A DNA stretch of 10,270 nt from positions 1 through 10,270 of the forward strand of contig JAAZJV010000001.1 in NCBI GenBank assembly GCA_012800135.1, read 5' to 3'. How positions within the stretch are numbered: position 1 is the first letter of the stretch; each line of letters starts with the position of its first letter. Positions 5,801 through 10,270 of this stretch are shown in pieces. A program made the position numbers and the translations under genes. The notes beneath the pieces are model-generated. The model was not told where the DNA came from, made no database searches, and saw only the letters and a list, made by a program, of their open reading frames with translations. Source of the stretch: Clostridiaceae bacterium. Its GTDB lineage: Bacteria; Bacillota; Clostridia; Saccharofermentanales; DTU023.

Positions 5801-6802
5801 ATGAAAATGAATCCTTCTATTTATGAACATTATATTGAACTAGACAGCCCGGACGAGGGGATTGCACTGCTAGGCGCATTTAACTCCCACGCTACGCTGG
5901 TAGAACAAACACTTTCAGTAACTTGCGATTCCGCGCCCGGCGGCATGGTTATACACGGCTCGGATCGAAAAAATGTCGAAACAGCAGCTCGGATTTTTAA
6001 AAAAATGCACACACTCTGCCAAGGATCAACACCTGTTACAGAGCAACTTGTGCGTTATCTTATCGACGCTTCCGTTGCGGGCAAACTGTCCGAAGCAGAA
6101 AAGTTCACTCCCAATCTTCTTCTTACTAACGCAAAAGGACGTCCGATTATAACGAAGACTATGGGACAAAAAGCGTATGTAGATGCGATCGCCTCACATG
6201 AATTAACGTTTGCCATAGGGCCTGCCGGAACAGGAAAAACGTATCTAGCTGTTGCGATGGCCGTCAAGGCTTTTCGCGCGCATGAAGTATCACGGATCAT
6301 TCTCACGCGACCGGCGATTGAGGCCGGAGAAAACTTAGGCTTTCTTCCGGGCGATCTTCAAAGTAAAGTTGACCCTTATATGCGCCCGATTTACGATGCT
6401 TTGCAAGATTTTTTAGGATTTGAAGTGTATCAGCGACATCTCGAACGTGGCGAAATCGAGATTTCACCGCTGGCATATATGCGTGGAAGAACATTGAATG
6501 ACGCATTTATTATCCTTGATGAAGCGCAAAATACAACGCGTTCGCAGATGAAGATGTTTCTCACGCGTATTGGTTACAACGCGCGCGCTGTGGTCACTGG
6601 TGACATCACGCAGATTGATCTTCCAAGACGGCACATGAGCGGACTTGCGGAAGCGGCTGATCTTCTGAAAGCCTTGGAAGGTGTGACACGTGTGACGCTC
6701 ACAGATCGCGATGTCGTTCGTAATCCCTTGGTGCAGCGAATTATTCGCGCATATGAAAAAGATGCGGCAAAACGTGCGTCGAGGGCACGTCATCGTACAT
6801 AA
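5801..6802 (+). CDS. phoH: PhoH-family ATPase (PhoH/YbeZ-like)
   Basis: Predicted cytoplasmic P-loop NTPase tied to RNA metabolism; in many bacteria it is encoded next to YbeY, as here. The 333 residues show a small N-terminal domain (about 36-75), then the PhoH core: GRPIITKTMGQKAYVDAI (113-130), Walker A GPAGTGKT (140-147, Lys146), LTRPAIEAGENLGFLPGD (168-185), Walker B with DEAQN (240-244) and VVTGDITQIDLP (254-265). The C-terminus is basic. Start ATG 5801 follows a GAGG site by a long 13 bases; an in-frame ATG at 5807 is even further away, so 5801 is kept. The next gene begins 32 bases after the stop. The biochemical role is less certain than the family. Confidence 0.93.
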   Translation: MKMNPSIYEHYIELDSPDEGIALLGAFNSHATLVEQTLSVTCDSAPGGMVIHGSDRKNVETAARIFKKMHTLCQGSTPVTEQLVRYLIDASVAGKLSEAEKFTPNLLLTNAKGRPIITKTMGQKAYVDAIASHELTFAIGPAGTGKTYLAVAMAVKAFRAHEVSRIILTRPAIEAGENLGFLPGDLQSKVDPYMRPIYDALQDFLGFEVYQRHLERGEIEISPLAYMRGRTLNDAFIILDEAQNTTRSQMKMFLTRIGYNARAVVTGDITQIDLPRRHMSGLAEAADLLKALEGVTRVTLTDRDVVRNPLVQRIIRAYEKDAAKRASRARHRT

Positions 6803-6834: not shown

Positions 6835-9534
6835 ATGATGGATAAAAAATCGAACATGAGGCAGAAGGAAAAACAAAAAGGACGATCCCTGCATAAAAAT
6901 GTAGCGACGACACTCACTGTTTTCGGACTGATCGTTGCTGCCATCATTACCGTATTCATCGGTTCGACTCCTCATAAATACGATCTTCAAATCGGAGATA
7001 TCAGTGTATATGACATTTCTGCGCCGCGTGATATCGCAGACAAGTCTGAAACGATGCGCCGTGCGCTGGTTGCGCGCTCACAAGTGCCGAATGTCATGAT
7101 TCGTTCCGAGGAAAAAAGCGACACATCCATCGATGAGATTCGTGTCCTGCTATCTCTCGCTTCAGATTGCCGCAACGATTTGTATGGATTCGAGACAGTA
7201 AGTCCGGATCCGGAATCGACTTCGACGGAGGAAACTGAGGCGGGAACGTTCACAATTGCACGCGCGCCGGATAATCATGAAATTGAGTTGGCAATCTCGA
7301 CATTAATTTCAGATCTCAGCCAAAAAGAGGGGATCATTCTGCCGTCGGGCGATGCCGATCTTCTGATACGAATGAGTGAAGAGCGGTTTAGAGCGCTCAA
7401 CAATACGATTATGACCGAAGCGCGAGTTATTTTGTCGGAGACATTGGATGAGGCGGCGTTACAACGTGCAATCGCGTCTTCTGTTGAACACATGCAAAGC
7501 ATCGCAACCTTTTTTAAAGACGACGCCTTGCTTGCCGGACGTTTGTTAAATCTGACACTACGGCCGAATGTGGAATTTAATGAGGAGGCGACGGAAAAAG
7601 CCCGTACTGCGGCGTATGACCGCGTAATGAATGATCCGGTTATGGTCAGCCGAGGCACCCGCATTTTAAGCCAAGGCGATGTGATTACGCCGGAGATCAT
7701 GTCAATGCTCAATGATCTCAATATGACAAAATCAGCGTCGTTTGACTGGGCACGGCTCGGGGGCATCGCCGGTTTGACGTTGCTTTGTACGATTATTGCC
7801 GCGTTGTTTTTTAGGCGCTACATCTCCATTTTGGGCGATCAGCCTTCGCGCAGTGTAATCGCATTGTCGTTAACGACGCTTCTTCCGTTGCTTATGTCGG
7901 CTTATCTGGCTCGTAATTTTCCGCTTGCGCCTCCGGTGTATTTTACAGCTGTAGTTGTGACGGCCTATTTTGGTTTTCGAGCAGCGATTTTTACGACATC
8001 GCTTCTGATCATTCTCATTATGCCGATGGCATCTTTTCATCCGTCTTTCCCGATCGTCGGAATTATAGGCTGTATGGTCGCGTCACTTTTCACTCAAGGA
8101 TCGAGACGACAAGACAATTATGCCCACATCATTGTCGGAGCCTCTCTGGCAACGGCGTCAGCAGCGCTTTTGATGGGCATCCTCCAAAAGGAATCTGCAT
8201 CGCTTTTAGTTTCAAACATCTTGCAGGCGACATTGTCCGGAGGCTTATCGGTCATCGCTGCCATCGGCATTATGCCGCTATTTGAACTCATCTTTAACAC
8301 GGTATCTCCTTTACGTTTAATTGAGTTGTCGCAACCGGGTCACCCACTGATGAAACGTCTTTTTGTCGAGGCGCCCGGTACCTCACAACATTCAATGATG
8401 GTTGCGAATTTGGCGGATACAGCGGCTGAGGCCATTGGAGCTAATGCCATGATCGCTCGTGTCGGCGCATATTTCCACGATGTGGGCAAGCTTGAGAACC
8501 CCATGATGTTTACGGAGAATCAAACGGGGGCAAATCCCCACGACCAGTTGACGCCGTTGGAGAGTGCTCGGATCATCACACGACATCCGGAAAACAGTTA
8601 CACGCTTGGTCGAAAGTACAGATTGCCGTTGCCGCTACTAAAAATAGCAAACGAACATCACGGATCAACAGTTCTTCAATACTTCTGGCGCAAAGCCTGT
8701 CGTGAGGCTGAGATGAAAGGTTTGCCACCTCCGTCGATTGATGCTTTCCGTTACCGAACACCTCTTCCAAGTTCGCGCGAATCTGCGATTGTGATGCTGG
8801 CTGACTCGACGGAAGCGGCGATGAGATCGGAAGGGATCAACAAGCTAGATGCAGCAGAGAAATTGATTCGGAACGTCGTCAAGGTGAAGATTGACCAAGA
8901 CCAACTGAAAAATTCAGGGCTTTCTTTTGCCGATATTGAAAAAATCATTCATTCCTTCCTCCAGATTTATGCCGGACATTTTCATGAGCGTATTGCCTAC
9001 AGTGAACAAAATAAAACGTCTGTTCCGGATCCTGAAAGAGACTCTTCCGGCATGAAGGACACTTTTGTAAAAGAGACAACTATGCCCATGCATGTCGTCA
9101 TCTCCGAAAATGATGAACAGACAGCGCCTGAGCGCAAGGATATAACAGCGCCTGTACGTGTTGTGACTTCAGTTGATAATTTTCAGGAAACAACTGAAAT
9201 AACTGACAGAGGGATACCTGTTCGCGAGTTTGACCAAGATGACTTTATAGAGAAAGTGGCTGAGCGCAAAAATATAACAGCACCGGTACGCGTCGTCATT
9301 CCTAGAGATGGGATACAGGCTGGGACAGAGCAAATTGATAGAACAATGCCTTCTCGCACAGTGAACGCTGATGATAATGTACTAGAAGAAGCTGAACGCA
9401 AAGAAAAAACCATGACGGTACGCGCCATAACTCCAGGTGACGGCACACAGTCTCTGGTTGGGCTTAAAGACAGAATGACACCTATACGCATCGTTACAGA
9501 ACGCAGGAAAAAGAAGAATGATAAGGATGATTGA
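6835..9534 (+). CDS. pgpH: 7TM-HD cyclic-di-AMP phosphodiesterase PgpH (YqfF) with repeat tail
   Basis: Integral membrane enzyme that hydrolyses c-di-AMP through a cytoplasmic HD domain. The 899 residues are longer than typical PgpH/YqfF proteins (around 700). In order: a basic cytoplasmic N-terminus; TM helix (23-42); an extracytoplasmic 7TMR-HDED-type domain (about 43-305) with an acidic stretch near 124-137; a bundle of hydrophobic helices (about 308-485); then the HD domain. Candidate metal ligands match the family pattern: His519 (QHS), His548-Asp549 (FHDVGK), His584, His608-His609 (EHHG) and Asp657. After about residue 743 comes a charged tail made of a 22-residue repeat (separate entry). 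AAGAGGG (6823-6829) serves either ATG 6835 (5 bases) or the next codon ATG 6838 (8 bases). The end overlaps ybeY. Confidence 0.93.
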   Translation: MMDKKSNMRQKEKQKGRSLHKNVATTLTVFGLIVAAIITVFIGSTPHKYDLQIGDISVYDISAPRDIADKSETMRRALVARSQVPNVMIRSEEKSDTSIDEIRVLLSLASDCRNDLYGFETVSPDPESTSTEETEAGTFTIARAPDNHEIELAISTLISDLSQKEGIILPSGDADLLIRMSEERFRALNNTIMTEARVILSETLDEAALQRAIASSVEHMQSIATFFKDDALLAGRLLNLTLRPNVEFNEEATEKARTAAYDRVMNDPVMVSRGTRILSQGDVITPEIMSMLNDLNMTKSASFDWARLGGIAGLTLLCTIIAALFFRRYISILGDQPSRSVIALSLTTLLPLLMSAYLARNFPLAPPVYFTAVVVTAYFGFRAAIFTTSLLIILIMPMASFHPSFPIVGIIGCMVASLFTQGSRRQDNYAHIIVGASLATASAALLMGILQKESASLLVSNILQATLSGGLSVIAAIGIMPLFELIFNTVSPLRLIELSQPGHPLMKRLFVEAPGTSQHSMMVANLADTAAEAIGANAMIARVGAYFHDVGKLENPMMFTENQTGANPHDQLTPLESARIITRHPENSYTLGRKYRLPLPLLKIANEHHGSTVLQYFWRKACREAEMKGLPPPSIDAFRYRTPLPSSRESAIVMLADSTEAAMRSEGINKLDAAEKLIRNVVKVKIDQDQLKNSGLSFADIEKIIHSFLQIYAGHFHERIAYSEQNKTSVPDPERDSSGMKDTFVKETTMPMHVVISENDEQTAPERKDITAPVRVVTSVDNFQETTEITDRGIPVREFDQDDFIEKVAERKNITAPVRVVIPRDGIQAGTEQIDRTMPSRTVNADDNVLEEAERKEKTMTVRAITPGDGTQSLVGLKDRMTPIRIVTERRKKKNDKDD
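9064..9495 (+). repeat. Seven in-frame 66-bp repeats encoding the PgpH C-terminal tail
   Basis: Units begin at PgpH residues 744, 766, 788, 810, 832, 854 and 876 (the last is partial), spaced exactly 22 residues with no insertions. The shared pattern is E-x-K-D-x-T-x-P-V-R-V-V, then a variable part with Asp at a fixed place. The proline recurs at 751, 773, 795, 817, 839 and 883 (Thr at 861). Arg recurs two residues later in six units. Asp recurs at 781, 803, 825, 847 and 869. Units 2 and 4 are the most alike (ERKDITAPVRVV and ERKNITAPVRVV), which suggests a two-unit step in the expansion. The tail should be cytoplasmic, after the HD domain; its function is unknown. Confidence 0.88.
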
Positions 9535-10270
9535 CGTACGATGCTATAATTGTCAAAGAGCATATGGCGCTCGGGAGCTGTTTCCCGTCATTCGGGAAAC
9601 AGCTGAGTACGTTCTCTATTCGTCTCCTTTTATTAGACGGCTTTTAGAAGAAGGCATCGGCGTTTGTATCGATGTGACAACGGTTGGACCGCGCATCATG
9701 CGCAAGATTAACCGGGAGCAGCGCAGTGTCGATGCTTTGACGGATGTACTGTCGTTTCCGGCACATAACATGCGAGAAGGCGCACTGGAAAAACCGCTAG
9801 ATCCTTGGCAAACATTTGCTCCGGATGATCGCTCCGCGCTTTACCTTGGAGAACTTGTCATATCGCCTGAACGAGCGGCAGAACAGGCAAAAAATCTCGA
9901 ACATACATTAGAGCGGGAACTGATGTTTCTTACTATCCACGGTGTCCTTCATCTTCTCGGTTTCGACCACGAATGTGAGGAAGATGCATTGACCATGGAA
10001 GCCTTGCAACGTCAACTGATACGTGGTTTGGAGGAAGTTCCTTCCGGTTTTGTGGCACTTTGCGGTCGGCCGAATGTCGGGAAATCGACTCTTCTTAACC
10101 TGCTTTCGGGACGGACACTCGCTATCGAATCTCCCAAGCCTCAAACGACACGACATGCAATCCGCAGTGTTCTTTTCTTTGATGACGCCGAGATTGCATT
10201 TCTAGATATGCCCGGTCTACACAAGCCTAGCAATGCACTCGGTCGTGCCATGATGAAGACGGCTATGCAA
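9518..10270 (+). CDS. ybeY-era: YbeY endoribonuclease fused to GTPase Era (C-terminus beyond window)
   Basis: One uninterrupted frame of 251 codons runs to the window edge. Residues 1 to about 173 are YbeY, the rRNA-maturation metalloendoribonuclease: ALTDVLSFP, LGELVISPERA, and the zinc motif HGVLHLLGFDH with His141, His145 and His151. From about residue 176 the same frame is Era, the GTPase that binds the 3' end of 16S rRNA: SGFVALCG, then G1 GRPNVGKST (183-191), a PKPQTTRH switch segment and G3 DMPG (230-233, usually DTPG). The rest of the G domain and the KH domain lie outside. There is no linker and no stop. No ATG lies at the Era boundary; the nearest in-frame alternative is GTG 10052, badly spaced. 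Start ATG 9518 follows AGGA (9505-9508) by 9 bases and overlaps pgpH by 17; ATG 9527 is the alternative. dgkA and cdd, usual neighbours between ybeY and era in Firmicutes, are absent. Confidence 0.92.
   Translation, partial: MIRMIDVRCYNCQRAYGARELFPVIRETAEYVLYSSPFIRRLLEEGIGVCIDVTTVGPRIMRKINREQRSVDALTDVLSFPAHNMREGALEKPLDPWQTFAPDDRSALYLGELVISPERAAEQAKNLEHTLERELMFLTIHGVLHLLGFDHECEEDALTMEALQRQLIRGLEEVPSGFVALCGRPNVGKSTLLNLLSGRTLAIESPKPQTTRHAIRSVLFFDDAEIAFLDMPGLHKPSNALGRAMMKTAMQ
9576..9604 (+). other. Perfect 12-bp inverted repeat with 5-base loop inside ybeY
   Basis: AGCTGTTTCCCG (9576-9587) and CGGGAAACAGCT (9593-9604) are exact reverse complements separated by TCATT. The stem would form in the mRNA about 60 bases after the ybeY start, within codons 20-29. 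No T-run follows directly, so it is not a standard intrinsic terminator. It may affect translation, mRNA decay or processing, or be a by-product of coding sequence. Confidence 0.75.

Follow-up and report, generated by a model that had tools for sequence, protein, structure and literature searches.

Does the open reading frame at the edge of this contig encode YbeY and Era as one genuine polypeptide, and if so, what could such a join contribute to the cell? The window, that is, the whole stretch of DNA analysed here, is an entire contig (C223, 10,270 bp) of a genome assembly that totals 1.65 Mb in 348 contigs and is 84% complete. Its last open reading frame comprises 251 codons on the forward strand and is still open at the contig end. 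A functional link between the two proteins, cited in the preliminary description of the locus, has been reported: excerpts of the respective papers describe a YbeY–Era interaction in E. coli by two-hybrid analysis (PMC5101352), and in S. aureus by two-hybrid, split luciferase and pull-down assays, where it is termed weak (PMC6738653). YbeY–Era fusions have also been reported in Clostridia (PMC6738653, 2019; PMC10582724, 2023, both in excerpt), and the architecture as such is already known. How Era fused to YbeY works is described as an open question in the excerpted 2023 review of Era (PMC10582724). We consider, with a probability of about 85%, that the gene encodes a single bifunctional small-subunit assembly factor, in which YbeY is joined almost without a linker to Era.

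Domain Organization of the Fused Gene

Profile searches matched YbeY and Era to the same open reading frame, as had been proposed from the letters of the sequence. Residues 49–171 correspond to YbeY (TIGR00043, 8e-33, with a score of 113 bits against a cut-off of 45; PF02130, 6e-33), and residues 176–250 to the start of Era (NF000908, 1e-27; TIGR00436, 3e-21), while PF01926 (3e-16) covers residues 179–242. Both Era models score under their curated cut-offs in the window, since only model positions 1–77, about 75 residues, lie inside it. The zinc, G1 and G3 motifs were recovered at the residues originally assigned to them (Table 1), and no stop codon interrupts the frame between the YbeY and the Era motifs. 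HGVLHLLGFDH is the zinc motif of YbeY. The frame thus contains a YbeY domain with an HxxxHxxxxxH zinc motif and an Era-type GTPase domain, uninterrupted and with YbeY first, as in the published fusions.

Table 1. Positions of the fused gene, its motifs and its annotated neighbours in the window.
Feature	Position	Strand	Basis or remark
ybeY-era fused gene, 5' part	9518..10270	+	ends at contig edge inside Era GTPase domain
ATG at which most genus members start in the alignment (MID...)	9527	+	alignment to genus
YbeY domain to third zinc His	9527..9970	+	TIGR00043, PF02130; zinc His in 52/52 aligned fused proteins
YbeY zinc motif, HGVLHLLGFDH	9938..9970	+	residues 141–151; His in 52/52 rows
Junction, 31 codons, last zinc His to Era G1	9971..10063	+	same length in 12/12 genus members examined
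Era G1 (P-loop), GRPNVGKS	10064..10087	+	sequence; GRPNVGKST from residue 183
Era G3, DMPG	10205..10216	+	residues 230–233; D and G invariant in 52/52 rows
PhoH-like gene (YbeZ/PhoH)	5801..6802	+	NF007827, 3e-66, under its curated cut-off
7TM-HD family gene	6835..9534	+	PF07697, PF07698, PF01966

The part of Era that the contig edge cuts off can be seen in relatives. In a complete relative of 475 amino acids (L031), YbeY, GTPase and KH_2 domains follow one another in a single frame, and a representative of family f2 (L134) likewise has the full YbeY–GTPase–KH order. The best match of L031 among solved proteins is Era (8.6e-59), with G1, G3 and G4 retained. The expectation that extending the frame would yield a complete Era GTPase and KH domain is thus borne out in these two proteins, but not in the window's own genome. 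There, a search with L031 (genome 84% complete) did not recover the remainder of Era, nor did it reveal a second, stand-alone Era; it returned other GTPases only, on contigs C7, C51 and C292, of which those on C7 and C51 are read, without a family scan, as Der and MnmE. With the window spanning its contig completely, the KH half must be sought past the contig edge. Residue conservation was assessed in 52 aligned fused proteins, four of them partial. The three zinc histidines, the P-loop lysine and serine, and the aspartate and glycine of G3 are invariant in all 52 rows, the G4 asparagine is present in 49 of the 51 rows with a letter there, and the KH glycines are kept in 50 of 50 rows where that region is present; with these residues so retained, both halves look active.

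The 7TM-HD gene immediately upstream runs to 9534 and so overlaps the fused gene, which begins at 9518; the PhoH-like gene lies upstream as well. The C-terminus of this 7TM-HD protein (9073–9534) consists of imperfect repeats of about 30 residues resembling TxPVRVVTxxDxxQ; read by eye, the repeat tail seems to be of different length in L031 and L032, both close relatives, and Tandem Repeats Finder reported only a single short array in it, at 9187–9206. A PhoH-like gene commonly adjoins ybeY and era in many Terrabacteria, according to the excerpted review (PMC10582724). The window also holds an adjacent pair of DUF881 genes (PF05949, 4025–5610) and, at 393–2432, a long protein of lipoprotein-like character that includes an acidic stretch and has only a weak solute-binding match (PF00496, 2e-4, below cut-off).

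Authenticity of the Reading Frame

An apparent fusion may be created when an assembly or sequencing indel deletes a stop codon, an error that the preliminary description itself had named as fatal to its claim. The metagenome assembly is fragmented and the junction lies 200–300 bp from the contig end, which leaves room for such an error, but the identical frame and junction length recur in 11 other genomes of the genus, and the chance of an indel is practically nil. The search of relatives that had been suggested covered 39 genomes, and in 12 of the 14 that belong to the genus (the window's own included) both domains share one frame, and in all 12 the last zinc histidine and G1 are a constant 31 residues apart; the two others, which are 69% and 84% complete, yielded nothing beyond weak GTPase matches. 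An assembly artefact is ruled out by these fused relatives, and the join is confirmed as genuine and common to them. Pairwise comparison of three sequences, the window's and those of its two closest relatives, gave pN/pS values of 0.04, 0.14 and 0.19 across the junction, which evolves as coding sequence under in-frame purifying selection. A second question is whether the fused gene additionally gives a separate Era, through an internal translation start or a protease. In the stretch 5–25 codons before G1, a start codon backed by a strong Shine-Dalgarno core occurs in 0 of the 55 fused genes and in 8 of 21 separate ones, although this criterion is strict and a weak control, as 13 of the 21 real separate genes were missed by it (L107, L108, L110 and the class outgroups being left out of the start-codon counts). 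Bare in-frame ATG codons 8–22 codons before G1 occur in 18 of 55 fused genes versus 19 of 21 separate ones. The window, which has no strong-Shine-Dalgarno start in the 5–25 codon range, does contain in-frame starts without such a core, namely TTG 12 and 20, GTG 4 and ATG 23 codons before G1, and the ATG is kept in 12 of 12 genus members. However, that ATG is YbeY's Met157, retained in 51 of 52 fused rows, so that its conservation needs no role as a start, and the TTG and GTG codons vary within the genus. In addition, the predicted structure described below has a single residue outside helix or strand at the join. The earlier view that Era has no clear start of its own therefore stands; internal initiation at Era is unlikely, and an additional separate Era by either route appears improbable.

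Four further loci lie apart from these counts. Three MAG contigs labelled Clostridiaceae bacterium and Bacillota bacterium carry the fused gene, but are probably the same records as three contigs already counted and add no extra support. The fourth locus (L034), in which the YbeY part alone matched, was left out of further analysis.

Distribution and Origin of the Fusion

The order was searched in 188 genomes, of which 79, picked from those with clear hits and so not at random, were dissected: 55 have the fused form and 24 the separate one. Three loci that failed the motif pattern (L107, L108 and L110) are counted here as separate, and G008, G012, G424 and G430, which belong to the window's family but yielded no usable gene, stand outside the 79. 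The fused form is found in 12 of 12 members of the window's genus (g1) and throughout g3 (5/5), g4 (3/3) and g6 (5/5), as well as in families f2 (22/22) and f4 (8/8); it is missing from g2 (0/6), g5 (0/2), g7 (0/1) and family f3 (0/15). The separate Era of L107, L108 and L110 (family f3, genus g236) has the P-loop GLPNAGKST or GLANAGKST, not GRPNVGKST. In the class, PF02130 was matched in 386 of 393 genomes. Among class members outside the order, where 147 genomes were searched and 5 had no match at the cut-off, an uninterrupted frame across both domains was seen in 2 of 141 (G049 and G058); in a further 6 the two domains share a frame that stop codons interrupt between them. In the phylum sample of 149 genomes, 18 of them without a match at the cut-off, the window's genome alone gave an uninterrupted two-domain match. 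Long-frame Era rows in G083, G587 and G663 were rejected as fusions, as YbeY sits in a separate short frame. Thus, fusion is common in the order and rare outside it in the sampled genomes. The preliminary description had supposed that annotated fusions of this kind exist and left their rarity undecided; they are published, and in the sampled genomes they are rare only outside the order.

On the 84-row tree, at least six changes separate fused and separate states, and their alternation within the order means that separate proteins suffice for close relatives too. The tree of the window's family requires three state changes, but AU tests rejected neither a single fused clade (p 0.115) nor a single separate clade (p 0.328) there, and several independent fusions within this family were not retained as a conclusion. 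In the order as a whole, fusion may have arisen several times from already overlapping genes.

A locus outside the order (L035) has the arrangement ybeY-dgkA-cdd-era, and a deletion of dgkA and cdd had been proposed as the event that brought ybeY and era together. Part of this proposal holds: dgkA (PF01219) is absent in 37 of 39 relatives, and cdd has moved, a cdd-family match being found in 35 of 39 (33 above the curated cut-off), with that of the window's own assembly placed on contig C76 and not on C223. The two relatives with dgkA both belong to genus g9 of family f3. The loss, however, probably predates the fusion and was not the fusion event, since ybeY already abuts or overlaps era in all 24 unfused order members dissected; in unfused genus g5, the start of era lies inside the end of ybeY, ATGAGTGA. 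We infer that dgkA and cdd left first and that a minor alteration of the gene border then sufficed for fusion.

The fusion, though real, might be neutral, abutting or overlapping genes having lost their border through a small indel with no gain over adjacency; such a reading contests the purpose of the fusion, not its existence. The g5 genes, which overlap without being fused, and the repeated alternation of the two states on the 84-row tree fit it. Set against this are the uniform fusion in the window's genus and in families f2 and f4, among genomes that were chosen for clear hits and not at random, and the purifying selection that acts on the junction. We regard neutrality as a plausible, though not a probable, account of the fusion, and continue to favour a bifunctional assembly factor.

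The Join and Its Possible Function

The join in the window's genus is the shortest seen among the fused genes, with 31 residues from zinc histidine to G1 compared with 33–122 in the order's other fused genes. An AlphaFold2 model of L031, based on the alignment of 52 fused proteins, reached a mean pLDDT of 91.7 and a pTM of 0.83. In this model, the last YbeY helix ends at residue 168 and the first Era strand begins at 170, with one residue between them, in agreement with the tight join noticed at the outset. The same 52 proteins led by L134, which has 59 residues at the join, gave a pLDDT of 88.9 and a pTM of 0.62, and residues 180–193, with pLDDT under 50, are predicted to form a disordered linker. 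This comparison, which is one pair of models with rigidity read from pTM and not from an inter-domain error map, suggests that the join in the window's genus is rigid. Among structures found by Foldseek, the best match was Era with the 16S rRNA 3' end (3iev, TMt 0.90), and the YbeY structures 7y7o and 1oz9 were matched too. It is conceivable, at somewhat less than even odds, that the linkerless fusion of the genus locks YbeY into one pose with respect to Era on the nascent 30S subunit; if so, its geometry would reveal the position of YbeY in platform assembly.

The proposed mechanism starts from an N-terminal YbeY zinc endoribonuclease domain that would run directly into an Era complete with GTPase and KH domains, as in the intact relatives. 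The KH domain would be expected to dock at the 16S rRNA 3' end and thereby to keep YbeY at the platform, close to uS11, with GTP controlling the process. This presumes an uncut protein in which both activities function and whose tether is there for joint recruitment. Fusion could also fix the stoichiometry and deliver the nuclease, as had been suggested earlier. So placed, YbeY might either cut the 3' end or assist in loading uS11; the excerpted 2023 review leans towards the platform role (PMC10582724).

Comparison with Known Systems

As a claim of new architecture, the present locus adds little. The excerpted text on the published clostridial YbeY–Era fusions is without junction details; here, the join is virtually linkerless and its length is constant, at 31 residues, in the genus. 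No mention of a linkerless junction was found in the open-licence PMC papers retrieved by searches on subjects other than the junction, and the linkerless join of this genus is possibly new. A genus-wide linkerless fusion would lend itself well to cryo-EM or crosslinking, since the tether restricts where YbeY can be placed on the 30S subunit. In its zinc motif, fold and conserved residues, the YbeY half resembles stand-alone YbeY (TIGR00043, PF02130; 7y7o, 1oz9), from which it differs in that its C-terminus continues into Era. The Era half, in turn, shares with stand-alone Era (TIGR00436, NF000908; 3iev) the G motifs, the KH domain in relatives and the arrangement seen in 3iev, whereas its N-terminus is YbeY and it has no clear start of its own.
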